Shown: one piece after another, positions 3,301 through 64,000 of the stretch
Position numbering within the stretch: position 1 is the first letter of the stretch
How the letters are laid out: every line of letters begins with the position of its first letter
NCBI RefSeq assembly: GCF_018873765.1
Contig: NC_057921.1
Coordinates: forward strand, 65,647,557 to 65,711,556
Reading direction: 5' to 3'
Source of the DNA: Telopea speciosissima
Lineage: Eukaryota; Streptophyta; Magnoliopsida; Proteales; Proteaceae
Length of the DNA stretch: 64,000 bases
The notes under the pieces: model-generated
The model's input: only the letters and a program-made list of their open reading frames with translations
Database searches by the model: none
What the model was told of the DNA's origin: nothing
Position numbers and translations under genes: made by a program

Positions 3301-5059
3301 TTTGTTGTTGTTGGTTAGGTTTGGGATCCTCTTGATGGGCCATCCATCAAATTTGGTGGTATGGCCCATTATTTTGGGCTTTTTCCTTTATTTTCCAATT
3401 GGTTCTTTTTCAGAGACCTATTTGAAGTATTCAAATTGTTGATAGATGTGGTTGTAAAATTGACTTTCCGTGATGGGAGTGTCTGAATGACACCTCCATA
3501 GGTGTATTTTGAACTTGACACCTTCTTTTATCCCTTTTGTCTTATTCCCAAATGTTCTTTGAATTAGGGGTATAAAGGGGTTTTCAAAAACTATTTGAAA
3601 GGGACATGTCATTATCAAAAGGTGTCATTGTCATGCACATATTTAGAGTTCACATGTGAAATGACAATGTTTACCCTCGTTGGAAAAAAATGTATAATAC
3701 TAAAAGGGCAAAAAGGTAAGGTTACAATTTTTTTGACACCCCCCAATAAGAAAATCCCATTTATTTATTCAAATTCCTTCTGCAAGCCATCTTATGATGG
3801 TTGGTTTCTTAGGACTTTCTCTTGATCTATTTCTATTGGAAGATGACTTGTGCTGTTCCTGAAATCAGCTGCAGCAATGCCAATGGAATCCCCTTCTAGG
3901 GGCTTCCTTTCTTAGGTTTGAAACTTAATTTTATGTTTGAATTCCAGATAAACAGAAGAATGGAGTTTGTATTTGCTAGCCACAGTTTTGATGTTTGGGA
4001 GAGTTGGACGTTGGAAGGTGCTCTGGAGGAATGTAGGCTTGTCAACTGTAGAAATCCCTTGGTATGTTTCTTTGTTCACTAATGGTCTGTTCTCATTTTG
4101 GTTGAATTTTTCCTTCATATTTTTTGGTATATTATTCTCATATGATGAGGGTGGACCTTGGTGCAACGGTAAGGTTGCTCCATTGTGACCAAGTAGTCAC
4201 GGGTTCGAGTCTCTGGAAACAGCCTCTCCGCGAAGCGGGGGTTAAGGCTGCGTACGTTATGACCCTCCCCAGATCCCGCAGTGGCAGGAGCCTCGTGCAT
4301 TGGATATGCCCTTTTTTTTATAATTCTCATAAGATAGTGCTTTTGTTCTCAAATTTCCTATGATTCGATAACTTCCATAATGCTTATTTTATTATTGAGT
4401 GCCTTAAATTTCCACATTGAAACAAATTTAATAGTTTATTGTTTTGTCTTCTTTCTGTTGATGCTTTGTAGTTTTGTAGAGCTAGAGTTGATTTTCCCAG
4501 TACCACAACCCTTGCATTATTAAATCATGGAGATTTTATATTTGCTCTCATGTAGAAATCATGTGACCCAAAGCTTGATACTCATAATGAGCTGAGTATA
4601 CAATTCTAGGAGCTCTATAATATATGAAAGAGTAAATATACTCATATAACAAATGCAAGTTCTCTTTTAATTCAGTGATTTAACTCAGTAACTCACATTT
4701 GTGAGAGGAGTATTTCTGTGGTGTGAAGGAGGATTTGTTGAATCTCTCACTGTGGATGCTTGAGCTATGCTTTTTTTCGTTTATCAAGGATAAAACTTGT
4801 TTCTTATCTGATCAAAATGCATGTCATCAATGCAACATGGGGTCTACTGTCCTTGTTATCTTCTCTTATTGTTTAACTTAATTTTTCGTTTATCTGAAGC
4901 ATGGTATGGCCGTTGATAACATTTTGTAGAAGAAGCTTTTGATTATTGATGTTGGTGGATTACTTATCATTTTCTCGGCCACTGCAGGCTATATTGGAGG
5001 TTCGTATCGAGATTCTTGCAACTCTAGGAGATGATGGGGTTGCTCGCTGGCTTGATTAG
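369..5059 (+). CDS. AN: ANGUSTIFOLIA (plant CtBP/BARS-like), C-terminal part
   Basis: This is the 3' part of ANGUSTIFOLIA, a plant homologue of CtBP/BARS that controls cell shape, cortical microtubules and leaf width and acts in the cytosol around the trans-Golgi network. Four exons join in frame: 369-1154, 1263-1310, 3948-4061 and 4988-5059, giving 339 codons plus TAG. Visible family hallmarks are EMPNVLILPHSADYSEEVWM at the start, a basic nuclear-signal-like stretch (RHSRSGKKSKKRHTRRK), the SSSSRFASPEDSRSRK segment, then FRSK/DTIGLRSFAAGGKLLQ/INRRMEFVFASHSFDVWESW and the end GDDGVARWLD. The 2-hydroxyacid-dehydrogenase-like domain lies upstream of the window. Introns 2 and 3 shown here each carry a sense-oriented Au SINE. 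A REVEILLE gene follows on the same strand, as in Arabidopsis. The identification rests on near-continuous similarity to the remembered Arabidopsis C-terminus. Confidence 0.93.
1555..1725. repeat. Common plant dispersed repeat (possibly RTE-type LINE tail)
   Basis: The segment contains the phrase TTATCCCAACTTAATGGGGT followed by a ggatcctctttcgcta-like stretch and a region rich in caccacttctcctag. I recognise this as a dispersed sequence seen in introns of many plants, probably the 3' end of an RTE-type LINE, but the family name is from memory. A shorter related piece lies at 22032-22075. Confidence 0.4.
3135..3314 (+). mobile_element. Au-type SINE with perfect 12-bp target duplication
   Basis: A complete tRNA-derived SINE sits in an AN intron in sense orientation. 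The head has the B-box-like GGTTCGAGTC; the body has AGCCTCTCTGCGAAGCGGGG and GGCTGCGTACATTATGACCC; the tail runs through GCCTCGTGCACTGGG to a short T-rich end, all typical of the angiosperm Au family. It is flanked by TTAGGTTTGGGA at 3123-3134 and 3315-3326, a perfect target-site duplication, so the ends are well fixed and insertion is fairly recent. Confidence 0.88.
4147..4319 (+). mobile_element. Au-type SINE, second copy in AN
   Basis: A second full-length Au SINE lies in the last AN intron, also in sense orientation, with the same GGTTCGAGTC head, GCGAAGCGGGGGTTAAGGCT body and a CTCGTGCATTGG tail ending in a T run. Flanks ATTATTCTCATATGAT (4131-4146) and ATAATTCTCATAAGAT (4320-4335) match at 14 of 16 positions and are the probable target duplication. 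That makes this insertion somewhat older than the copy at 3135. Confidence 0.85.
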
Positions 5060-38479: not shown

Positions 38480-41086
38480 TCAAGTCCTCCTCTGATTGCT
38501 TACTCTTGTCCAAATGAATAATTCCTTCAGATAATCAATTTGATCAAGGTGGTATTTGATCGTAATGCACAACTGCCTTATCACTTCTTTCTTCTCTTCC
38601 TCCTTGCTGAGCACCTCATCTTCTTTCTCTTTGAGTCTGTTCTCCAATTCTCTTGCCTTCTTCTTAAGTTCAGCTACACTTCTCAACAGTTTCTCCTTCA
38701 CTTTCTTGTTCTCATCCTGTAACATTGCAATCTCTCCCTGAAGCTCTTCTTGAATTCTCTGCAACGTTTCGATGGTTTGACGCTCCTTCTCTTGCAGATC
38801 ATTGACCTGTGCCTTTAAAGCCCTAATTTGAGCTGACCCTTCATTCTTGTTATCCTCAAGTTTCTTCAGTAGACTAGAAAGCTCACCTCCTCGCACTGAT
38901 AATATTCTCTCCAAAACCAAGATCTTATTTTGAAACCTTGTTCTCGTGAGCTGAAGTGCCTGGTTTTCTTCCCTCAACTCCTGTGCTTCATGACTCTTAA
39001 TTTTGATCTTCTCTTCCAGTTCACCTTTCTGTGCCAATAAAGAGTTCACCTCCGGTCGTAAGTTAGTCACCTGAACTGCCAGATTATCCTTCTCAAGGGA
39101 CAGGTTTTCAATCTTCTCATGCAACGAATCTAGTTCCTTATGGATAGCAGAGACTTCACCTTCCTTTTTCTGGGTTTGTAAAGAGGCCAGCTCGGATTCT
39201 AAAGCAGTTGCATCTGCCTCTAAACCCTTTACTCGAGCTGATGCTTCATTTTCAAACTGGCATACCATTTTGAGAGAAGAAAGTTCAGATTCACTCTCAT
39301 TGGACCTCTTTATCAACCGTTGAACTTTCTCTGTGAGTTCCTGTATTAGTCTTCGATTCTGTTCCATGGTATTTGAAATTTTTAAAATTGTTGGAACAAC
39401 TGCAGTGTTCACCTCCTGAGAACCCATTCCCTGAGTTAAATCAGCAGCTCTCTCATTGGCAAATTCCAGTCTTTGCTTCAGATCAGAAACGTCCCCTTTC
39501 AGAGCTTCCAGTTCTTGTTTTAGTGCTCCATTCTCAACCCACAATGTTGAATTCTCATCTTTCAACTGATCACCTCTGACTTGCAGGTCTTCAGAGAATT
39601 TCTTCCCCTCATCAATACTACTCAAAGCTTTGTGCATATCTGCTCTTAAAGCTTCTTTCTCTCTGTATGCATCTTCCAATCTCTGCTTCAGGTCAGAAAC
39701 TACTTGGTCATTTGCAGCTTCAAGTTTTTGTTTAGTGCTTTCATCCCACTTTTGAAGCTCATTTCTATGTTTTCTGTTTTCACTTGCTTTCTCCTTGAAA
39801 GAATGATCTGAATCGGAAACTGAGCTGGAACTAGGTGATAAGTGGCCATCTTTTTCATCTTGGTCATGAGATATCTCCTTTAACTCAGCAATAAGATGAT
39901 CATACTGTTCATTGAGTGATTGGCACTGTTCTTTGAAATCCTTGAAGGCGTCAAAAAGTTCTGACTCTCTGTTCGAGTTCCCTATGGAATTGTCCTCTTC
40001 TCCTCCATCTTGGATAAGCTTCAACAACTTCTTCAATTTATTCTCCATTTCTGCAATAGACAGGATGCTTCTTAAGCCATTACTTGAGTATCATGAACAA
40101 CTTAAGTTCTAAAAGAACAGATTAAATGTCCCATTCTCAAACTAATAAATAACATGTCATTAACAAATTGTGGGCAAAGAATCAAAGTGGAAATTCAAGG
40201 TTTGAAAAAAGAAAGGATAAACTGCGCAACTTGGACACAAGCAAGTAATGTATACAATTAAAATAGCAGTTATCCAAGAGAACAAACTGAAGAGATTCAA
40301 TCAGGTGACGCATCCTAAAGAAATTACTAAGGTTGAAATAATAAGAGCCATAGCATTTAGAAAAGAAGTAACAAAAAAAAAAGAGAGTACTTCTGCCATG
40401 CACTCAGATAATGTTAGTTGAGTAGTGAAATGTCTGTTTTGGGAGTGCTGGCACCATGTCCATTACAAGGGCATGATGGTCATCCACAGCTGGTGTTCAA
40501 GTTCTATAATGTGTCCCTCTTCAACACAGGCATAGACCAACTGCACAGCTGGAATCCCAACCATACATAACCACCAGATTATTTGAAGAGAGTGTTAGTA
40601 TTGTTCTTTTCTGTTCTTACAGGCTCATACCACCGAGGAAATGTTGAAATGATAATAACAAGATAAATTAACAGCAGAATGAGCATTATAAATTGGAAAA
40701 CAATTAATGGTCACTAAAACCATAGGATTTACAAAAAACTAGACCAAAACAGTGACTGAAAAACAATAAAACTAAAACCTTAACATATATGGCAAATAAG
40801 AAAATTAACCTACGACCGGACCTTGGTCGTCAAAAATAATTTTTTGTAGGCTGACAAAATATTCTAAAATTGCTTTACCTGACTTCCTAATTCCATTCTA
40901 TGTTGTCTTCTTTGAAGGAAAACTATGAATTTCTTCAATGACATTTGAAAGATTAAGAACATTGTCTAGAAGATCTGGAGCAAGAAAATCACCTTTTTTT
41001 GTCTGTATAAGCTGTTCAGTTTTTTCAGGAGCAACATGAGTCCCAAAAGTGGATTTTAGTGAATCCCTCCAGTGATCTTTCGCCAT
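38480..41086 (-). CDS. CIP1/myosin-heavy-chain-like coiled-coil protein, copy A (short)
   Basis: Two coding exons, 41086-40993 and 40050-38480, join in phase (codon split G|AA) to give 554 aa. The N-terminus MAKDHWRDSLKSTFGTHVAP, then TKKEMENKLKKLLKLIQDGG, matches the start of COP1-interactive protein 1 and its short relatives (NAB-like actin-binding region). A Ser-rich linker (SPSSSSVSDSDHS) and a long heptad-repeat coiled coil follow. The end VIRQLCITIKYHLDQIDYL is the CIP1 signature (compare EAIRQLCVWIDHHRSRCEYL). Family members associate with cytoskeleton or membranes; Arabidopsis CIP1 binds COP1 and acts in ABA signalling. Compared with copies B and C it lacks about 145 internal residues before RQTIETLQ and about 20 more after LDSLH, both without frame loss. 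The frame is open, so it may be functional. Confidence 0.85.
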
Positions 41087-44443: not shown

Positions 44444-47400
44444 TCAAGTCCTCCTCTGGTTGCTTACTCTTGTCCAAATGAATAATTCCTTCAGATAATC
44501 AATTTGATCAAGGTGGTATTTGATCGTAATGCACAACTGCCTTATCACTTCTTTCTTCTCTTCCTCCTTGCTGAGCACCTCATCTTCTTTCTCTTTGAGT
44601 CTGTTCTCCAATTCTCTTCCCTTCTTCTTAAGTCCAGCCACACTTTTCAACAGTTTCTCATTCACTTTCTTGTTCTCATCCTGTAACCTTGCAATCTCTC
44701 CCTGATGCTTTTCTTGAATTCTCTGCAACGTTTCGATAGTTTGACACTCCTTCTCTATGGTTGCAACTGCCTTGTCTAATTCTGTGGACTGAAGCCTTTC
44801 CTGAAGATCTTTATGAATCTCCTCCATTTTACTCAACACTGTTTTCAATGAAGTAATCACTTTTCTTCCAATTTCTACTTCTTTCTTCAGCTTCCCAGCC
44901 ATCCCTTGCGACACATTAATCATCTCATCTCTATAATCAATGTTTCTTAGCTTTTCGTGAAGATCTTCAATCATTTTTTGCACCACCTCGCGATTCTCCA
45001 GTGATTCCTGATACAGATCCTCAAATTGTTTATACTCTGTATTTAACTTCTTGATTCTATCCTCCTGCTCTTTCAGGAATTTCAGCTGATCAGAAGAAAC
45101 CTTCCAAGTTAACTCAATGTTCATATTCTCCACCTGAGTCTGTCTTTCTGCAATCTGTAAATCCAATTGGCTTTTCTGGGAGTGTAAGGAGTCCAACTCC
45201 ACTCGCAGATCTTTTACCTGTACCAATAAAGTCATAATTTCAGCTGACCCTTCATTCTTGTTATCCTCAAGTTTCTTCAGGAGAATAGAAAGCTCATCTG
45301 CTCTCTCTGATAATATCCTCTTCAAATCCAAAATCTGATCTTGAAACTTTGTTCTCATGAGCTGCAGCGCCTGGTTTTCTTCCCTCAACTCCTGTGCTTC
45401 ATGACTCTTAACTTTGATCTGCTCTTCCAGTTCACCTTTCTGTGCCAATAAAGAGTTCACCTCCGGTCGTAGGTCAGTCACCTGAACTGCCAGATGATCC
45501 TTCTCAAGGTACAGGTTTTCAATCTTCTCATATTCAGAACTTTCTTGGTTTTTTTTCTCAATTTGCAAATCTAATTGGTTTTCCTTAGTGTGCAACGAAT
45601 CTAGTTCCTTATGGAGAGCAGAGACTTCACCTTCCTTTTTCTGGGTTTGTAAAGAGGCCAGCTCGGATAGTAAAGCAGTTAAATCTGCCCCTAAACCCTT
45701 TACTCGAGCTGATGCTTCATTTTCAAACTCGTGTAGTTCAGCTTCACTCTCATTGGACCTCTCGGTCACCCGTTTAACTTTTTCTGTGAGTTCCCGTATT
45801 ATTCTCTGTTCCTGTTCCATGGTATTTGAAATTTCTACATTTTTTGAAACCAGTGCCATGTTCTCCTCCTGAGCAGAACCCAGTCCCTGAGTTAAATCAG
45901 CAGCTCTCTCATTGGAAAATTCCAGTCTTTGCTTCAGATCAGAAACGACCCCTTTCAGAGCTTCTAGTTCTTGTTTTAGAGCTCCATTCTCAACCCACAA
46001 TGTTGAATTCTCATCTTTCAACTGATCACCTCTAACTTGCAGCTCTTCAGAGAATTTCTTCCCCTCATCAATACTACTCAAAGCTTTGTGCATATCTGCT
46101 CTTAAAGCTTCATTCTCTCTGTATGAATCTTCCAATCTCTGCTTCAGGTTAGCAACTGCTTGGTCATTTGTAGCTTCAAGTTTTTGTTGGGTGCTTTCAT
46201 CCCACTTTTGAAGCTCATTTCTAAGTTTTCTGTTTTCACTGGCTTTCTCCTTGGAAGAATGATCCGAATCGGAAACTGAGCTGGAACTAGGTGATAAGTC
46301 ACCATCTTTTTCATCTTGGTTGTGAGATTTCTCCTTAAACATAACAGTAAGATGATCATACTGTTCATTGAGTGATCGGTACTGTTCTTTGAAATCCTTG
46401 AAGGCATCAAAAAGTTCCGACTCTCTGTTCGAGCTCCCTATGGAATTGTCCTCTTCTCCTCCATCTTGGATAAGCTTCAACAACTTCTTCACTTTATTCT
46501 CCATTTCTGCAATAGACAGGATGCTTCTTAATCCATTACTTGATTATCATGAACAACTTAAGTTCTAAAAGAACAGATTAAATGTCCCATTCTCAAACTA
46601 ATAAATAGCATGCCATTAGCAAATTGTGGGCAAAGAATCAATGTGGAAATTCAAGGTTTAAAAAAAGAAGGATAAACTGCATACCTTGGACACCAATTAA
46701 AATAGCAGTTATCCAAGAGAACAAACTGAAGAGATTAACTCAGGTGACGCATTCAAAAGAAATTACTAAGAATGAAATAATAAGAGCCATAACATTCAGA
46801 GAAGAACAAACAACAAATGAAAGAGAGTACTTCTGCCATGCACTCAGATAATATTAGTTGAGTAGTGACATGCTTGTTTTGGGAGTGCTGGCACCATTCC
46901 CATTATAAGGGCATGGATAACTGCACAGCTGGAATCCCAACCATACATTACCACCAGATTATGTGAAGAGCACAGTATTAGTATTGTTCTTTTCTGTTCT
47001 TACAGGCTCATACCATTGAGGAAATGTTGAAATGATAATAACAAGATAAAATAACAGCAGAATGAGCAGTATAAATTGGAAATCAATTCATGACACTAAA
47101 ACCATAGGATTTACTAAAAACTAGACCTAAAGAGTGTCTGGAAAACAATAAAACTAAAACCTTAACATATATGGCAAATAAGAAAATTAACCTACAACCG
47201 GACCTTGGTCGTCAAAAATAATTTTTTGTAGGCTGACAAAATATTCTAAAATTGCTTTACCTGACTTCCTAATTCCATTCTATGTTGTCTTCATTGGAGG
47301 AAAACTATGAAATTCTTCAATGACATTTGAAAGATTAAGGCCATTGTCTAGAAGATCTGGAGCAGGAAAATCACCATTTTTTGTCTCTATAAGCTGTTCA

Positions 47401-50684: not shown

Positions 50685-53600
50685 TCAAGTCGTCCTCTGG
50701 TTGCTTACTCTTGTCTTAATGAATAATTCCTTCAGATAATCAATTTGATCAAGGTGGTATTTGATCGTAATGCACAACTGCCTTATCACTTCTTTCTTCT
50801 CTTCCTCCTTGCTGAGCACCTCATCTTCTTTCTCTTTGAGTCTGTTCTCCAATTTTCTTGCCTTCTTCTCAAGTTCAGCTACACTTCTCAACAGTTTCTG
50901 CTTCACTTTCTTGTTCTCATCCTGTAACCTTCCAAACACTCCCTGAAGCTCTTCTTGAATTCTCCGCAACGTTTCGATGGTTTGATGCTCCTTCTCTACG
51001 GTTGCAACTGCCTTGTCTAATTCTGTGGACTGAAGACTTTCCTGAAGATCTTTATGCATCTCCTCCATTTTACTCAACACTGTTTTCAATGAAGTAGTCA
51101 CTTTTCTTCCAATTTCTCCTTCTTTCTTCAGCTTCTCAGCCATCCCTTGCAACACATTAATCAACTCATCTCTATAATCAATATTTCTCAGCCTTTCCTG
51201 AAGATCTTCGATCTGTTTTTGCACCACCTCGCGATTCTCCAGTGATTCCTGATACAAATCCTCAAATTGTTTATACTCTACAGTTAACTTCTTGATTCTA
51301 TGCTCCTGCTCTTTCAGGAATTTCTGCTGATCAGAAGAAAACTTCCTAGTCAACTCAATGTCCAAATTCTCCATCTGAGTCTGTCTTCCTGCAATCTGCA
51401 ATTCCAATTGCCTTTTCTGGGAGTGTAAGGAGCCCAGCTCCACTTGCACATCATTGACCTTTGCCAAGAAAGCCATAATTTTAGCTGACCGTTCATTCTT
51501 GTTATCCTCAAATTTCTTCACTAGATTAGAAAGCTTCTTCAAATCCAAAATCTGATCTTGAAACTTTGTTCTCATGAGCTGCAGCGCCTGGTTTTCTTCC
51601 CTCAACTCTTGTGCTTCATGACTCTTAATTTTGATCTGCTCTTCCAGTTCACCTTTCTGTGCCAATAAAGAGTTCACCTCTGGTAGTAGGTCAGTCACCT
51701 GAACTGCCAGATGATCTTTCTCAAGGTACAGGTTTTCAATCTTCTCATATTCAGAACTTTCTTGGTTTTTTTTCTCAATTTGCAAATCTAATTGGTTTTC
51801 CTTAGTGTGCAACGAATCTAGTTCCTTAGGGAGAGCAGAGACGTCACCTTCCTTTTTCTGGGTTTGTAAAGAGGCCAGCTCGGATAGTAAAGCAGTTAAA
51901 TCTGCCTCTAAACCCTTTACTCGAGCTGATGCTTCATTTTCAAACTGGCATAGTTCAGCTTCACTCTCATTGGACCTCTCGGTCAATCGTTGAACTTTTT
52001 CTGTGAGTTCCTGTATTATTCTCTGTTCCTGTTCCATGGTATTTGAAATTTCTACATTTTTTGAAACCAGTGCCATGTTCTCCTCCTGAGCAGAACCCAG
52101 TCCCTGAGTTAAATCAGCAGCTCTCTCATTGGTAAATTCCAGTCTTTGCTTCAGATCAGAAACGTCCCCTTTCAGAGCTTCTAGTTCTTGTTTTAGTGCT
52201 CCATTCTCAACCCGCAATGTTGAATTCTTATCTTTCAACTGATCACCTCTGACTTGCAGGTCTTCCGAGAATTTCTTCCCCTCATCAATACTACTCAAAG
52301 TTTTGTGCATATCTGCTCTTAAAGCTTCCTTCTCTCTGTATGCATCTTTCAATCTCTGCTTCAGGTCAGCAACTACTTGGTCATTTGCAGCTTCAAATTT
52401 TTGTTTAGTGCTTGCATCCCACTTTTGAAGCTCATTTCTATGTTTTCTGCCTTCACTGGCTTTCTCCTTGGAAGAATGATCCGAATCGGAAACTGAGGTG
52501 GAGCTAAGTGATAAGTCACCATCTTTTTCTTCTTGGTCATGAGATTTCTCCTTTAACTCTGCAGAAAGATGATCATACTGTTCATTGAGTGATTGGTACT
52601 GTTCTTTGAAATCCTTGAAGGCATCAAAAAGTTCTGACTCTCTGTTCGAGTTCCCTATGGAATTGTCCTCTTCTCCTCCATCTTGGATAAGCTTCAACAA
52701 CTTCTTCAATTTATTCTCCATTTCTGCAATAGACAGGATGCTTCTTAATCCATTACTTGATTATCATGAACAACTTAAGTTCTAAAAGAACAGATTAAAT
52801 GTCCCATTCTCAAACTAATAAATAACATGCCATTAACAAATTGTGGGCAAAGAATCAAAGTGGAAATTCAAGGTTTGAAAAAAGAAAGGATAAACTGTAT
52901 AACTTGGACACGAGCAAGTAATGTATACAATTAAAATAGCAGTTATCCAAGAGAACAAACTGAAGAGATTAACTCAGGTGACACATCCAAAAGAAATTAC
53001 TAAGAATGAAATAATAAGAGCCATAACATTCAGAGAAGAACTAACAACAAATGAAAGAGAGTACTTCTGCCATGCACTCAGATAATGTTAGTTGACTAGT
53101 GAAATGTCTGTTTTGGGAGTGCTGGCACCAGGCCCATTATAAGGGCATGGTGGTCATCCACAGCTGGTGTTCAAGTCCTACAATGGGTCCCTCTTCAACA
53201 CAGGCATAGACCAATTGCACAGCTGGAATCCCAACCATACATTACCACCAGATTATGTGAAGAGCACAGTATGAGTATTGTTCTTTTCTGTTCTTACAGG
53301 CTCATACCACTGAGGAAATGTTGAAATGATAATAACAAGATAAAATAACAGCAGAATGAGCATTATAAATTGGAAAACAATTAATGGTCACTAAAACCAT
53401 AGGATTTACAAAAAACTAGACCAAAACAGTGACTGAAAAACAATAAAACAAAAACCTTAACATATATGGCAAATAAGAAAATTAACCTACGACTGGACCT
53501 TGGTCGTCAAAAATTAATTTTTGTAGGCTGACAAAATATTGTAAAATTGCTTTACCTGACTTCCTAATTCCATTCTATGTTGTCTTCATTGGAGGAAAAC

Positions 53601-55707: not shown

Positions 55708-57800
55708 GAGAGTTCACACTAAGGCATTGGTTGATGGAATTTCCAATTTCAGTGGTTAATTCAATTAGTGTTTTTTTTCCCTATATTCAAAGTCAAAGAC
55801 CTATAAATCCCCTTCCCTAACTTACAATAGGGTCGATTTTGATGATGCACCACCAGTCCTTCCCTACCACTAACATCCCCTTTTGGACACGTTGTACTCC
55901 GGTTTTAGTCATGTCAATCCGAATATTCCCAATCTTACGCATAACCATGCACTTGTGCTTCATGATTGGTTATAATTAACATTAAACAGTGGTGTGGTCT
56001 CAGAATCCACCATTCTCATTTTCTGATCCTTTGCTTTCTAGATGGGTTCAAACCCTATTCGATTTGGGAAAAATTTTTCAATTTCAAACCCTAAACGATT
56101 TATTGAATATGAGGGCAATTTGATCATTTTATTCTTTAATTTTGATGGATTTTTATTAGAGGGGCATTTTGATCATTAGATTCCCTAAAACTAATGTCTA
56201 ATGTCCCATTCTAATGGATTGAACCAAAATGCTACAATGTTTTGAAAATAGAAGGGAGTTTACAATTATAAAAGCTATAGGGGGCATTTGGACAAATGGG
56301 CATTTTAAGGGAGGCATTTGTCAAAAACCCTAAACTAAAAAAGGCTAGAGGTTGGCCACGTGCGGGGTCCCAAATCCCAACGTACATCGGAATTCATTAA
56401 GTTTTAATTAAAAAAATTAAAAAAATAAAAACTACACTTTAATCAAATAGACTCATTAGGATTAGGGATGTAAACAGATCCGAGTCAAATTACATCTATG
56501 ATTGTGTAACCCAGACCTTCCCCCAACAGATAAGATTCACTCTCAAGCCATGTTTTAGTCTCATAATTCTCATTTCCTCATTCTTTAGAATTTATTGAAT
56601 CTTCAAAAACCATCTATATCATTAGTTGGATGTCTATTTAGATCGAATAAATTTTTTTTTCCAAACTATTCAAATAAAAATTTGAATACCCCTAAACGAA
56701 AACAGATGCATATCGAATTCAGATTTTCGTGCACTCGATTACATCCCTGATTAGGATCTGATCTAAATGCTCATATTGATAATCCTAGTTTTCTGTGTAT
56801 GCATGGAATTTTGGATTTCCTCTTCGTAGTCATTGGATTTTCATGTAATGCTTCTCTAGCCGTCTTCCTCCACATCTTTCATATTTCATTGGTTTGTTGT
56901 CGCATTTAGTTCTTTCAGTCTTGTCAATGCCATTAACCTTCAAACAGCTGCAAGCTTTAGTTTCTTGGAGGCTTTTATGTTACTAAGACCATTTCAGACC
57001 ACTTAATATGACTTGGCTTCATTTAACTCTTTTGGGGTTTCTGAAGTGGATTCGGTTTCAGTATACATTTTCATGGTAGTAAGCTTCATTTAATGCCATT
57101 CTGGAATCAAACAAATGCATTATTTATTGGTTCATTTTTTGGAAAGAGTTCTAAAACCCTAGAGAGGAAAACTTGCCATGCTAGCCATTGAATTCATATT
57201 TCTAATACAAGAATAGCCACTAAAACCCAACCTGTACTGGAAGGCTAAATATAACAACAGCAGAAAGCTCCTCCACACACACACAGCCTTTTACAACTGA
57301 TCGAGTGCATCTGCTGTATCAGAATCCAGCTCTACCATCTGAGTTATCACTTGTTTGGGGGGTACCACCAAGGCAACAACCCTGATTAAGCTGCAACTAA
57401 AACTAAAAAGCCACCTGCTTTCATTAAAAAGGACCCACAGACACTTGGTGCACGAGATTGCTCAAATTACTAGCCATTCCACAGGAAACAGTTTCCTATT
57501 AAACAACATTAGCATGAATAGTTTCCTATTAAACAACATTAGCATATTCATGATATGCATTAGAAATTGCTGAAGCATTATACTACAAGGAGTCCAATCC
57601 ACTGCAAAATCCATTTACAACTGTGGGAACATTGTTCAATTGGGTGATAAAGCCTAGATAAACAACTACGTTGATTACAATGCATTTCCCTCTATATGCA
57701 TCTTATATATATTCTATACAAAAGGTAAAAGAGTTCTGCTATGATCTTTGTAACTGCTATTACTACTAATGCCATCTCCACCAAAGTGTATATCTCATGG
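55708..57800. other. Spacer between the CIP1-like array and TFIIIA
   Basis: The unit-C distal marker ends near 56990. Beyond it a 25-bp sequence is repeated at 57491-57515 and 57521-57545 (GTTTCCTATTAAACAACATT...). The region just below 57801 should contain the TFIIIA 3' UTR. No gene is seen. Confidence 0.5.
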
Positions 57801-59385
57801 TTACTCATTTACCCCAGAAAGTAACCATGCAATATAGTCGGGTCCCTGGTTCAAGACAGAATCCATCAGACTAGGTGGGTTCACCCTCTTACGTAGCAAA
57901 GTCTCCACACTAGGGCATGCCCTTTTACGCCCACCTCTTGGCCTTGACCGGAATAGTTCATCAGACTCCTCAAAATCCCCCTACACATAAATCAATAAAA
58001 GCAAGATATCAGCTGGATTTTTGCTACATGTCAACATATAACTAACCAAATTCATGCTCAAAAGTCAAAACACAGTATGCAACACAGTTGAAGTCTCACA
58101 TCCAGAGACTTACTTGGACATAAACATGGATTCCAGATTTCTCATGATTATCCCTCACATGTCTATATGGGAACTTCTTGTCACATCCACGAATTCGACA
58201 GGCAAATGGTCTGACCTCAAGGTGTGCTGCCTTAATGTGTTGATTGAGATTTGATTTCTGCAAGTAACAACAAATAACTAAGTACTGTTGGGTGGCTTTC
58301 AGAAAGAACTGAAAATGAATTACAGAAGAAAATCTGATTGATGCTCAGGTTCCTTCAAAATATAATCCTTCTTAAAAAAACATATTGGTATTATTGTTAT
58401 ACTAAAAATGTTATATAATGATAGAGAAAGAACGCTTCAGGGTTACATCAAGGTTCTTAATTTAAAAATGTTATATAATGATAGAGAAAGTACTTTTGGT
58501 CTAGAATAAGTTAACCCCCCCCCCCCACCTGCAGATTAACTACGAAATAGAAGTTAACAATTTGAGTTTCTTCTGGGGAAATTTAACAGACTGAAACAGG
58601 AAACAAAAATACAATGCTGAAAAGAAAATAGGAAAGTCTTACAGTAGTGAATGTGTGTGGGCAGCCCCTGAAACTGCATTTGATATCCCCGGACGAAACT
58701 CCAGCATCATGCATCCGCAGATGCCGCTTGATATTCTTCTTCAGATGCTTTTGTCCACAAACCTCACAGGTAACATGTTGGTGGCATGACTGGATATGAG
58801 CTTTAAGGCATTCATCATTTGTGAAATGTTTCATACAACCTGTCTCCCCACAAACCACTTCCACAGTATCTAGTTTAACTGTAGTGATAAAGATTGTCAG
58901 CAAAATTAACAATGCAAGAGCTGTAATAATCCAATACAAGTTAACCTATTTTCATAAGTTGTAACAGAAAATGAAGTAATGGAAACTGGAATAGGACCAT
59001 TGGGAGCTCTTGATACACTTGATATCCTTCTACAAAAAAGGATCAGTCTAATAGCTAGAGAGGGAGGGTAGGGGAGGTTGACCAGTAACGTAAATTTACC
59101 ATGGGAATCCTCGTGTTTCCTCAGCTTTGACACAAATTCAAACACCTTTCCACACTCCTTGCAAATATGCTGCTTTTGACCTCCAGTGTCGCAAGAGGAA
59201 GACACTTGTTCTTCATGAATCTCCTTCACATGTCTCTTCATATTACCCTGAAATGCAAACCTACGAGTGCAGTTCTCTACAGGACAATTGAAAAGCTTCC
59301 CTTGGTGCTGGAGCAGGTGACGGGCCAAGTGATCTTTTCTCCGGTAGCTTGACTGGCAGTCATCTACTGGGCAAGTAAACGGCCT
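57801..59385 (-). CDS. TFIIIA: Transcription factor IIIA, seven zinc fingers
   Basis: Plant TFIIIA is the nuclear C2H2 protein that binds the 5S rRNA gene and 5S rRNA and starts Pol III transcription of 5S genes. Exons 59385-59100, 58878-58643, 58257-58114 and 57980-57801 keep phase and give 281 codons plus TAA. Fingers in order: FTCPVDDC...[13 protein letters not shown]...HVKEIH, HICKECG...[13 protein letters not shown]...[13 protein letters not shown]...[13 protein letters not shown]...HIKAAH and FACRIRGC...HEKSGIH, then [19 protein letters not shown] and a tail ending [14 protein letters not shown] normally has nine fingers; the two that precede [10 protein letters not shown] are not found anywhere up to 61.3 kb. 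Exon 59385 has no ATG before a usable acceptor, so translation must start in an upstream exon. The P5SM cassette exon lies 97 bases upstream. Confidence 0.88.
58403..58490. repeat. 28-bp direct repeat in a TFIIIA intron
   Basis: The 28-mer starting TAAAAATGTTATATAATGAT occurs at 58403-58430 and 58463-58490, 60 bases apart, in the intron between the third and second last exons. Confidence 0.8.
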
Positions 59386-59481
59386 CTGCAGAACACGTGC
59401 ACAAGAACATGCTCTATAAAAGATGATGTTGAAGATTGGTCATAATTAACATTAACAAATGAACAAATTGTAAATCCTTAC

Positions 59482-59599
59482 AAGAGCTTCTCAGGAGGTC
59501 ACCCCACCTGGTACTGGTCCATTCAAGATTAAATCTACAGAGCCTCTTGCATTTTGGAGTTCTTCAAATGGGATCCAATGCTTCACACTATAACATCCA
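59482..59599 (-). promoter_or_regulatory. P5SM: P5SM: 5S rRNA-mimic cassette exon of TFIIIA
   Basis: On the minus strand a 118-nt segment flanked by an AG acceptor (59601-59600) and a GTAAGG donor (59481 downward) resembles 5S rRNA. It begins TGGATGTTAT, contains GGATCCCAT (59576-59568) and GAACTCC (59562-59556) spaced almost as in 5S rRNA, and near its end has GGGGTGACCTCCTGAGAAGC, one mismatch from the conserved 5S stretch GGGTGACCTCCTGGGAAG. This is the known plant element P5SM, a cassette exon in TFIIIA pre-mRNA that folds like 5S rRNA and is recognised by ribosomal protein L5. Because 118 is not a multiple of three and stops occur in it, inclusion gives a non-productive mRNA; skipping gives the protein. 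It lies in the expected place, just upstream of the [10 protein letters not shown] exon. Confidence 0.9.
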
Positions 59600-60865
59600 C
59601 TAGTTTCAACAATAATCTTAATCATTAGAAAATATAGTAACAGAAAAGATAGAGGTGGGGAGAGAAAGAGAGAGAGGGAGGGAGACCTAAACTCTGCAAG
59701 ATTGAAACTCTCTAACCCATAACACCAAAATACCAGCTCAATGCTTAGGGAAAGCAACATGATTTCCAAAAAACAAACAAATAAATAAATATTCAAGTTG
59801 CCAAAAGTACTTTTACTCAAAACAGTTCCATTGCTCAACCAAGCATGCAATAATGGAATATATACAACCTTGTTCAACTTGTTAATTAATTTCATTGGAA
59901 AACTTCAAACTTCATGGCCATGTCTGAACCATTATGCCAATAAATAATATCTTGTTAGACAGTTTTTAGGTTGCTTTTTCAATTGAATAAGTCTTATACA
60001 ACTATTTTTCGAATTAAATTCGCAAGATGCTTGATTCAATCTCCCAAAATGCAGAAGTAAATAACGCACCCCAACCAAGGCAGTGCCTCCACCAAACCAG
60101 GTTTTAACATATTGCACCATAACCATGAAATTAAAATGGATTCCAGACATTAATTCAACTAAAACAGCACCCCACAAAAACCAAAAACAAAATCAGTCTT
60201 AAATAAATCCTCGGCAATTAAAAGGAAGTATATAGTGAAAAAACAATAAACATTTAACACCGTAGAAATTGGAAACACAACATGGCATCGATCTGCCAGT
60301 ACCAAGCACCAACAATCAAAACCCCACAAAGGAAAAAACAGGGTTAAAGAAAGGAATATCAAAACAGACACAGGGATAACAAATTCCACTCGGAAAGGTT
60401 CAGTATTTTAATGCTGAGCGCATCATCAAGTCAAATATCAGAATTTCAGAAAGGGATGAGATGCTAAAACTTCCATACAAAAATAAAAAAAAAATGGAAT
60501 TGAGAAGAAGGAAAAAAGGAAAAGTGTAAACCAAGCGATTGATCATCTTGCAAGGTAGAGAGGTCTTCTACAGTAATGGGGATATCTCATAAGAGATGTT
60601 ACGACATTGCACTCCAAGACTAATTAATCCTTTTCATATTTAAAAAAAAAAAAAAACTGAATGGGCTCATCTGAATTCGTGGGTGGTTAGGTTATGAAAA
60701 ATGCAGAAATGATATATGGTGAAGAATGGGTGGAAATGATCCATTTCTTCAAACACCATCTGCATATAATCATGAAACCATTTCATTCCAGCCTAACAAC
60801 CAAGTCCATGAATAAAGCAATACAGAGGAGAGAAGAAGGAAAGCACAGCAATTCAAGAAGCATAC

Positions 60866-60919
60866 CAGCTTGACGGTGTCAAGATAAGCATTAGTAGCCG
60901 ATCTAGGGGACCAGCCCAT
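60866..60919 (-). CDS. Short coding exon resembling a DUF1442 protein start
   Basis: An ATG at 60919 in good context opens MGWSPRSATNAYLDTVKL and then meets a donor (CTG followed by GTATGC). The pattern WSPxxAxxAYxDTVK is the start of plant DUF1442 proteins, an uncharacterised family with a methyltransferase-like fold. No further DUF1442 exons are visible downstream between 59600 and 60860. The exon ends in phase 0, and the TFIIIA exon at 59385 starts in phase 0, so direct splicing would give an in-frame 299-aa fusion. Whether this exon belongs to TFIIIA, to a dead DUF1442 gene or to an alternative transcript cannot be settled from sequence alone. Confidence 0.4.
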
Positions 60920-61600
60920 CTCAGAAGTCTGAATCATCAAACAGGAAGAACTCCTTACAACTAATAGATCAGATTTCGCTTCTTCTGCACCTTTAAAGAG
61001 AAAGAACAAAATACCCTTGTGGAAATCCTTGAACGCCACAAATTCCAACTCTTCGTATAAGAATATTCTCCTTGATAAGGGAACGCACGAAAACGAAAAG
61101 GAAAGCAAAAGAAGCGAATAACTGATACAGGGAGGAGGTGGGGAAGGAACGGAGCACTGAATCGAAGGTTTGGTGGGGGCAACAGAAATGTAGAAATACC
61201 AAAATCAGTTACGAGATCAGCAGAGCATGCATGACTAAGAAAGAAGAAGATAGAGAAAACTGCGGGGTCGTTAGGCAGCCGTGGCCGAATATAACGGAAA
61301 CGACCGGCGACCAAATCCCGATTCTTTAGGGTGACTTAATTGGCTTTCTACTAGGCCAACGCAGGACACCCTTTTCATTTTGGGATTCCGATCATCTCTT
61401 CCACTTCCAACCGCCAACTACGACCAGACTGAACTGGACACAACACGTAATCCCACAAAAACAGCCAAGTAACGAAAAAGTCCATCTCATATATCTCTTT
61501 GGATTTTTACTACATTTTAATGGATCATTTCCTCAAAAATAATGAAATTCTATACCTACCGGAGTAGACTAGCCGCCTCACCAATGAGGTATGGGATCTT

Positions 61601-61763
61601 TATCACCTCCAGTTTGCTGACTGGCCCAATTCCCCAGTTCTTCTAACAAAAGGGGCTGAAATGACCTCTCTATCCATGCCCAAACACCCTGCCCGGGTGG
61701 GGTCCACCATCCCCCTATTAGAGGAACTGGGGAACTGGGCCGGTCAGCAAACTGGAGGTGATA
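61601..61763. mobile_element. MITE with about 45-bp terminal inverted repeats
   Basis: The left end TATCACCTCCAGTTTGCTGA and the following bases, through CCCCAGTT, are matched by the reverse complement of the right end with about three mismatches over about 45 bases. The element is 163 bp and non-coding. ATGAGGTATG occurs on both sides (61584-61593 and 61771-61780), a few bases from the ends. It lies just upstream of the promoter area for the 60.9-kb exon. Confidence 0.75.
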
Positions 61764-61976
61764 ATTTTCCATGAGGTATGACGATTTTATATATAAGAGG
61801 GTAGCAAGGTCATTTCATGTATGCTCAGCATCATTTCCCTATAAATATAATAGCCTCACCAATAACCACATAAGCAAATCATATGTAAAAATTAAAGAGC
61901 GACTTTACAAATGGACTTAGTTTTTCCTTAAGCCACGATGAAGGAATTCTTGACGGCCATCATTCTGCTTTAACAA

Positions 61977-62125
61977 GTGTCGGGCGAACAATGAAAGGTA
62001 TTTTGGACCTTCAATATATAAAAGTAATGATGACCTTAGATTTATGGGTGTCGGAAAACAATGAAAAGCATTTTGGACTTTTAACATAGAGGGAGAACAA
62101 TACTGACCTTAGATTTGTGGGTGAA
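61977..62125. repeat. Diverged tandem duplication, unit about 70 bp
   Basis: Two adjacent copies share GTGTCGG, AACAATGAAA, ATTTTGGAC and TGACCTTAGATTT in the same order. No function is seen. The following 62126-63478 shows no gene, but its right part probably contains the 3' UTR of the gene at 63479. Confidence 0.55.
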
Positions 62126-63478
62126 CCTTTCAGGATAAGAAACTTTCTCATTTACGAATTGGGAGACTGCACCCAAGAGTAAGAGGTTGCCTACTTCAAA
62201 AAACAAAAATATAAACAAAATGCAACCTTGGTTTTCCTCTGTTTTCAACACCTGAGTGTCCGAACTTAGCAACAGTGCCAAACCTGGATGTTCTGCCATT
62301 TTTTTAAAAAGGGTTTTTGACCTCGCCCTTCATCCTATAATAGGGGGTGGCCCTTCTTCTCTTTGTCTTGTAGGAGATATAAATAGTAAAGAAAATGCTC
62401 ATGTTACGACATCATAATTACATCTTATCTTATTATATTTTTCCACAATAAAGGAAGGAAGAAAAGAGTAGCATATTCCCTCTTCCATCTTTATCCCAGC
62501 TTTCTGGTGCCCAAATCAAGCCAGATCATACAGTGAGCAACAATTATGAATAAGAACTAAATATAGGTGATCTTCTGATAAACAGTTAATCATTAATTTG
62601 AACATTTCAAAATTGTCATTATTTGTTTTGGCAACAATTTTGCACTAAATAAACAATATGAAGCAGGTCTTGTTTTATATGATGAAAAAGACAATTACCT
62701 GCTGATAAACCCAATTCAATTTCATAAAAAATTAAATCAAGAATCAGTCATTTAACAAGTCCTACGGAAACGAAAAGCTCTTGCCCTAAGACATCTCTCC
62801 AAAATTCAAAACAGATTAGTGTAAGCCTGCACAACAGAATAATGCACCAATCAGCCTGAGATAATCTATGGCTAAAAGCAAGATAATATTCCCATTTTTC
62901 ATTACTTGAAAGAAGGAAAAAAATGACAGGACTTCAAATAAACCAACTGCCGAATAAACCAATCACTCGCTTGGGCTAATGGAGCTGTGAATGGTCCGGG
63001 TGGCCTACTGGGAGAAAAATGATGCCCAGACTTCGACTTTTTTAATCTTAATGTTGTTTTTGTTGATCCAGCAAGAAAATTAAAAATAGGAGATAGCATA
63101 CAAACCTGTTTAAACAGAAAAGCCTTTTGCTTCTTCAACAGTACATATTCGTGGAACAGGGATCAGCTCACTGCTGTCGGCATCTGCATCATTGGGTTTT
63201 TGAGAGTGTCAGTAGAAGAAAAAATTTGGTTCTCAATCTCGCCAGTTTTTTAACAAGGTTTCAACAACACATGATTGCCCGCTCAAGTGGTTCTAAGACC
63301 ATGAATACTGAGAACCATGTTGACACAACCGACGAGTTACTTCAATTGGGGGAACTAACCTGTATTCATTCCCCATGCTTGGCCAAGGTACGATATCATG
63401 CGAGAACCAAACCAGTACGAACCATATACTCCAGTATCTTGTATTGAGGATAAAATAAAGGAATCAACTTTCTAGTAG

Positions 63479-64000
63479 TCAACCTTCACTAGAAGAGATG
63501 ATACTAGATTTGGGAGTTTCACTCCCTCTGACTACTCTATTATAAATGACTTTGAAGGACTGTGATCCATATGGCCTATTGAGCAAACTTAGAGGCATTC
63601 GCAGTGTCTGTTTTCGGTTTCTACGTCCCCTAATTAAAATGCTGAAGCTTCCCTCTCCATCAATCCTTTGACTGTGTCTTGACACGTCTTTCTCAACACT
63701 GTCTTCTGACTTCTCATTTAGATCGCTGCCATCAGTTGGTTCACTTTTATCTGTTTCACCTCTACAAGATCTTGAGTTGTCATTTTCTTGCTTATTTTCC
63801 AATCCATTTTCAGCTACTTTGCCCCCACTCTCTTGGACCTCGCTTGCTAGATTACCCATGTTTTTGTTGGCTTCATCCTCTTCCCCGCTATCGATTGGTA
63901 GAGTTGAAGCTGAAATCATTGCCTCAAGATTATTGGATTGCATTTTTGGCTCCAACACAGGGTCAGCAATTGGCTCAACAACAGGTGGCAAGACAGAAAT
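63479..64000 (-). CDS. C-terminal exon of an unrecognised plant protein (partial)
   Basis: The frame is open from the window edge to a TGA at 63481-63479, giving at least 173 codons. The first 110 residues are acidic and Ser/Glu-rich ([33 protein letters not shown]), typical of a disordered nuclear linker. The end is basic and looks conserved: [20 protein letters not shown], then [16 protein letters not shown] and a Ser-rich tail. Composition and the ordered C-terminal motif support a real coding exon, but I do not recognise the family. The rest of the gene lies beyond the right edge. Confidence 0.6.

Follow-up and report, generated by a model that had tools for sequence, protein, structure and literature searches.

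The two N-terminal fingers of TFIIIA help hold 5S DNA. In Arabidopsis, we take AT1G72050 to be the TFIIIA gene of the type that carries a P5SM (5S rRNA mimic) exon, whose skipping L5 controls in canonical nine-finger plant TFIIIA. According to a review, TFIIIA is encoded by a single-copy gene, and it is debated whether its seven-finger form, TFIIIA-7ZF, arises from an mRNA of its own or by proteolysis; Layat 2012 is reported there as having found it to be a proteolytic product of the nine-finger gene (PMC6164485). The TFIIIA-7ZF protein has been seen in both A. thaliana and Nicotiana benthamiana (PMC6164485). Its first three fingers are pivotal for RNA-template binding and the fifth possibly contacts Pol II (PMC9521916), whereas no DNA-binding ability is known for it, and an interaction of its C-terminus with Rpb2 has been predicted and supported by experiments (PMC13152212). 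The papers that we found on TFIIIA-7ZF deal with viroids that use it. We know of no established role of this form for the plant itself. Duplicated TFIIIA is described in teleosts, whose gtf3a duplicates, likened to the present case by duplication, are set apart by ovary-specific transcription, and for which subfunctionalisation is proposed (PMC6991959). No dedicated seven-finger TFIIIA gene was found among the papers listed in literature searches that covered few subscription papers.

Here we describe a TFIIIA copy in the window, the 64,000-nucleotide stretch of the Telopea speciosissima genome that was analyzed (C6:65647557-65711556, C6 being the window's contig). The assembly searched holds 822,943,500 bases in 1287 contigs, and C1, C3, C6, C8, C9, C10, and C11 are 57-88 Mb each. 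The copy consists of four intact exons on the minus strand, which encode fingers 3-9 and the C-terminus and were delimited by a finger scan and spliced translation: the exon for fingers 3-5, here also called the RPFTC exon (59100-59385), that for fingers 6-7 and the start of finger 8 (58643-58878), that for the remainder of finger 8 and finger 9 (58114-58257), and, from the spliced translation, a last exon with the basic C-terminal region and the stop (57801-57980). Joined at canonical splice sites, the four give an unbroken frame of 281 codons plus stop; finger 8, interrupted by an intron, was read from the spliced protein. The introns are retained, which rules out a retrocopy. Among the best 60 of 82 structure matches, nearly all are zinc-finger proteins, and those named TFIIIA are 8ffz (E 3.4e-14), 1tf6 (E 7.6e-13), and two shorter ones. 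We take 8ffz to be the yeast protein and 1tf6 and the two shorter ones to be from Xenopus.

Plant TFIIIA genes with a P5SM exon share with this copy the finger sequences, the place of P5SM just before the finger-3 exon, and the basic C-terminus (PMC6164485, PMC5568362, PMC4374538). Unlike them, the window copy is without exons for fingers 1-2, has a DUF1442 exon upstream, and carries a P5SM exon with a 33-nt deletion. TFIIIA-7ZF of Arabidopsis and N. benthamiana has the same seven fingers and tail (PMC6164485, PMC9521916, PMC13152212), but it is described as a splice product, or per Layat 2012 a proteolytic product, of a nine-finger gene (PMC6164485), whereas the window copy can encode seven fingers only. 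The 281 intact codons hold fingers 3-9 and the basic C-terminus and nothing else, with a leader upstream of finger 3 that may differ; in contrast to TFIIIA-7ZF, they do not belong to a nine-finger gene, no finger 1-2 exons having been found for this copy. The earlier sequence-only reading of this DNA had reported seven of the usual nine fingers beside a DUF1442-like exon, and both the count and the juxtaposition prove sound.

That reading had also proposed a search of the genome for a second, nine-finger TFIIIA, and such a gene exists. The finger 3-5 exon has five matches in the assembly: the window itself, C8 (92% identical), C10 (in two pieces), and C9. The C8 gene is intact and has all nine C2H2 fingers in one frame, against seven in the window copy. 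At this locus (L018) finger 1 lies at 2567-2632, finger 2 at 2928-2990, and the P5SM exon at 3838-3985, between the finger-2 and finger-3 exons and followed by the later exons, with finger 8 again across an intron and a frame that ends two codons later than that of the window copy. The C10 and C9 copies are decayed, with stops and frame breaks, and serve as a control for what happens to unprotected copies in this genome.

The first two fingers are missing from the window copy by every search made. A relaxed C2H2 scan of the window found neither on the minus strand at coordinates higher than 59385. A tblastn search in which the C8 finger 1-2 protein was the query hit the window's own finger 4-5 exon at E 0.001 and seven other places at E 0.24 or worse, none of them on the minus strand in 59386-64000. 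The earlier claim that no finger 1-2 exon lies on the minus strand at 59.6-61.3 kb is thus upheld by the scan and by tblastn. Assembly-wide, the same protein has seven matches at E<=1, with none on C6 and none on C430, the contig that carries the orphan DUF1442 exon described below: the two exons on C8, finger-1 pieces on C2 (twice), C3, and C9, and, on C11, finger 2 in damaged form. C8 alone carries both finger exons, so one complete finger 1-2 pair was found. Together with the alignment to C8, these searches rule out hidden finger 1-2 exons upstream of the window copy or on C430. In that alignment, blastn pieces span the window from 57303 to 60494 and end at L018 3062, 62 bp into TFIIIA intron 2. 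The stretch at 59600-60494 (minus strand) is accordingly intron 2 from 62 bp past the finger-2 exon on, matched in several pieces with 122 substitutions in 749 aligned bases. Beyond it, window 60495-61500 is no more similar to the exon 1-2 region of C8 than shuffled sequence is (alignment score 223; 100 of 200 shuffles equal or better). Since homology with C8 begins inside intron 2, the 5′ end of the copy was cut there. The minus-strand segment from the homology start to the DUF1442 donor (60495-60865) matches only itself in the assembly, has no above-chance homology with the C8 TFIIIA 5′ region, and would be the 5′ part of DUF1442 intron 1.

The reading that we favor, tentatively and with slightly less than even confidence, is that a TFIIIA paralogue was cut in intron 2 and really joined, at 60494, to the remains of a broken DUF1442 gene, namely its promoter and first exon, with a seven-finger product like TFIIIA-7ZF. 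We infer the reality of the join, transcription and splicing across it, and a TFIIIA-7ZF-like action of the product.

Other fragments of TFIIIA in this genome were observed in passing. Three element copies, 93-94% alike (L043, C3:16194731; L044, C2:47560351; L046, C9:37777703), carry TFIIIA exon 1 with finger 1 and intron 1; they appear to be a Pack-TIR-like capture, with inverted ends deduced from cross matches. Window 26977-27701 matches both flanks of the L044 element (L044 2717-2255 and 715-482), which meet at window 27469, and looks like the same repeat without the element, that is, an empty site. A further piece, L045 (C2:24848415), runs from finger 1 through intron 1 into exon 2, where it ends sharply; it is 87% like C8 and has a stop. 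Transposon capture of the Pack-TIR type was considered for the window copy itself and rejected: among 25 of 46 inverted pairs listed, those enclosing 57285-60919 are at most 30 nt long and imperfect.

The P5SM exon of the window copy (59482-59599, minus strand) was recognized by alignment to the genome's own 5S rRNA and by comparison with the C8 and C9 copies. Rfam gave no match in the window at the gathering score, none in 57.5-61.5 kb at E up to 1, and on the C8 P5SM region one subthreshold, unrelated match; the genome's own 5S rRNA was therefore used. Scored as 59483-59599, the exon aligns to it with a score of 159, against a mean of 67.6 and a maximum of 123 in 1000 shuffles, none of which is as good, while an intron control scores 52, equaled or bettered by 236 of 1000 shuffles. 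Where aligned, window and C8 exons are 98% identical (2 substitutions in 114 bases), against a rate of 17% in introns and flank (P=1.8e-7). Relative to both C8 and C9, the window exon has lost 33 nt, and, judged by C9, this deletion and both substitutions are specific to the window copy. The lost segment includes what folding of the C8 P5SM predicts to be the 3′ strand of the closing helix, although the exons fold no better than shuffled sequences (window z +1.40, C8 z +0.19). Given the near-identity to C8 and the deletion particular to this copy, the sequence of the switch was conserved through most of its past, and the switch may now be impaired. The 5S-rRNA-like exon thus stands before the finger-3 exon in partly deleted form, and the suggestion that the copy still carries its 5S-mimic splicing switch is right for most of the exon and its 5S likeness, with the 33 nt missing.

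Strong purifying selection has acted on fingers 3-9 for the greater part of the time that the copy has existed. Between the window and C8, Ka is 0.044 and Ks 0.271 over 281 codons (Ka/Ks 0.163, bootstrap 0.097-0.271), and the alignment has no gap in 846 coding positions, against 424 gap columns in introns (173 in the intron-2 region and 251 in the regions of later introns). With equal synonymous change assumed on the two branches, placing every replacement on the window branch would still leave it with a ratio of about 0.33, and at most about one-third of that branch's history can therefore have been neutral, sampling error aside. With C10 and C9 as outgroups of the finger 3-5 exon, the nucleotide changes in replacement codons number 2 in the window (2 codons), 5 in C8 (4 codons), and 3 unplaced, and the synonymous changes 3, 3, and 4, respectively. 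With the presumed sequence of the Arabidopsis protein as outgroup, 5 changes are window-derived, 8 C8-derived, and 13 unplaced, in conflict with C10/C9 at residues 60 and 66. With C10 as sole outgroup, changes at codon positions 1, 2, and 3 of this exon are 4, 1, and 3 for the window, 3, 0, and 7 for C8, and 8, 6, and 7 for C10, small numbers that hint at relaxation on the window branch. Apart from that one count, the copy shows neither the broken frame nor the relaxed constraint of a pseudogene.

Most of this constraint could nevertheless date from a nine-finger past. A nine-finger paralogue may have worked until lately, when a real rearrangement removed exons 1-2 and left a nascent pseudogene with the DUF1442 exon as an accidental neighbor. 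The P5SM deletion, being specific to the window copy, fits such a history, and so do the scattered, damaged TFIIIA pieces, evidence of breakage and dispersal of the gene in this genome; yet the 281-codon frame holds no stop, frameshift, or indel, and the window branch shows no excess of replacements with the C10/C9 outgroups. We consider so recent a break rather unlikely, though it deserves serious attention, also in light of the DUF1442 evidence.

The exon upstream of the copy is a genuine DUF1442 first exon. It encodes MGWSPRSATNAYLDTVKL (60866-60919, minus strand) and ends at a phase-0 donor, GTATGC, with a score of 3.9 on a plant donor matrix; an in-frame upstream ATG at 60937 would extend it by MIQTSE. 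DUF1442 proteins (PF07279) have an 18-codon first exon ending in phase 0, as this one does. A profile search with PF07279 found at least five loci of the exon-2 type, two on C1 and one each on C430, C11, and C3, the last two in pieces. First exons of the same form were read in both C1 genes and in those on C11 and C3, and in these four and the window's a phase-0 GT follows directly (5/5). The claim of a DUF1442-like first exon with a good ATG and donor is thus well founded. In contrast to DUF1442 genes, the window has no domain-encoding exon 2, and none was found in it or in the next 10 kb. As to the remaining DUF1442 exons, for which a genome search had been suggested, an orphan exon 2 that matches was found elsewhere, with an intact frame at C430:31070-31719 (L021), very close to one end of that 32-kb contig. 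Its first codon, a phase-0 Cys codon preceded by CAG, lies 475 bp from the contig end, and the exon also matches Methyltransf_24 slightly above the family cut-off. With the window exon joined to it, its PF07279 score is 116.7 bits, against 94.6 bits without. Of the DUF1442 pieces recovered, at least five exon-2s and five exon-1s, this exon 2 alone has no exon 1 in its preceding 475 bp, and, of the five exon-1s compared, the window's alone has no exon 2 in the window and next 10 kb. By elimination, the C430 exon is probably the remainder of the window's DUF1442 gene. The two would then be halves of one gene, split in this assembly.

The split may be either a real rearrangement that joined DUF1442 exon 1 to TFIIIA or an assembly misjoin. 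The intact frame on C430 suggests that the gene was either broken recently or is unbroken and misassembled, and it is the main weakness of the chimera reading; it fits the recent break just discussed. In a misjoin at about 60.5 kb, DUF1442 exon 1 would truly adjoin the C430 exon 2, and the TFIIIA segment would come from elsewhere, its fingers 1-2 unassembled. C430 stops 475 bp upstream of exon 2 with no first exon readable in that stretch (the best match to the window exon in all of C430 has E 0.40), its terminal 197 bp are unique, as is the putative intron piece in the window, and the junction falls within an A tract, which reads as T on the coding strand. Against these points, the window is free of any N, and the search brought up no contig on which the missing exons for fingers 1-2 occur with the identity expected; of the other pieces, the best lies on C2, has a stop, and breaks off inside exon 2. 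Placement of C430 by synteny yielded only short repeat-like matches with C6 and the paralogous C1 stretch, which speak neither for nor against a position here. We regard a misjoin as improbable.

In the history that we favor, a TFIIIA paralogue of roughly the same age as the neighbor gene's paralogous stretch would have been cut in intron 2, losing exons 1-2 with fingers 1-2, so that P5SM, together with the four exons that encode fingers 3-9 and the C-terminus, would now lie behind the DUF1442 promoter and first exon. A transcript from that promoter, with P5SM skipped, would place an 18- or 24-residue DUF1442 leader in frame with fingers 3-9. Inclusion of P5SM, entered in phase 0, would bring a stop after three codons (TGG ATG TTA TAG), whereas use of an inner donor at 59508 would give a protein starting MDQYQ-RPFTC. 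Any full-length product would have seven fingers, equivalent to TFIIIA-7ZF, with the later fingers and basic tail kept; any fully translated product having fingers 3-9, the TFIIIA-7ZF set, the locus can be placed as a possible hard-wired seven-finger TFIIIA. The phase fit between the DUF1442 exon and the RPFTC exon, to which the sequence-only reading had given weight, is real, but it is a one-in-three coincidence: among ATG-to-donor combinations in 59386-63400, 5 of 15 are phase 0, two of these five being the DUF1442 exon with either ATG. What stands of the proposed 5′-truncated duplicate with a captured foreign first exon is therefore the truncation, in intron 2 of a sister of the C8 gene, and the adjoining genuine DUF1442 exon; its capture as a spliced, expressed chimera does not follow from the phase.

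The copy could also be expressed independently of the DUF1442 exon, either through a promoter within the old intron 2 or through P5SM-including transcripts that begin at the inner start, MDQYQ. The candidate start (59508-59522, minus strand), found by an ATG/donor scan, is in frame with RPFTC through the donor CAG/GTGGGG (score 4.8), and the same ATG and GT occur in the C8 and C9 copies; beyond its GT, however, this donor departs from the usual GTAAGT. We think such independent expression very unlikely.

Returning to the join with the DUF1442 gene, its strongest form would be that, after duplication, this copy turned into a gene dedicated to the seven-finger form, in which the DUF1442 promoter and first exon replaced the exons for fingers 1-2, with its own expression control and purifying selection; this we hold to be doubtful, and distinctly less probable than even. 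For the product, TFIIIA-7ZF is a closer parallel than the dominant-negative form suggested earlier. If the dedicated gene were real, isoforms would be partitioned between paralogues, and a form elsewhere reported only from a nine-finger gene, by a splice switch or proteolysis, would be fixed in a genome, a natural test of its use to the plant. A selected gene copy limited to seven fingers would separate both forms genetically and make a role in the plant testable. The whole-genome context raises the value of the case: a nine-finger sister is present, the seven-finger copy is constrained, and the likely other half of the DUF1442 gene is identified.

The age of the TFIIIA pair can be gauged from its neighborhood. 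The window is collinear with a stretch of C1 over one large upstream gene and its downstream flank, up to window 62581. This gene is presumably REC-like. For its C6/C1 pair, Ks measured over 577 codons is 0.243, near the 0.271 of the C6/C8 TFIIIA pair, which is therefore about as old; the two pairs may, but need not, stem from one whole-genome duplication. At the matching place C1 has neither DUF1442 nor TFIIIA and another gene instead, the best DUF1442 hit beside the C1 stretch having E 0.53, so that the DUF1442/TFIIIA stretch sits where collinearity has ended. The gene that follows in the C1 stretch lacks a close second copy and is thus of no use as an anchor on C6. Compared with 30 kb around the C8 TFIIIA gene, the window shows, besides TFIIIA, only short repeat-like matches.

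Two high-copy repeats were noted in the window. One, palindromic, occupies about 61591-61770 with arms at 61600-61646 and 61718-61764, and its scored copies elsewhere are 93-97% identical. Another lies just downstream of the TFIIIA copy, at about 55984-56341, with copies mostly 82-90% identical among the matches listed. Elsewhere in the window, three large minus-strand reading frames (38483-40090, 44447-46543, and 50688-52760) are closely similar over their first 160 residues and apparently form a tandem gene family.
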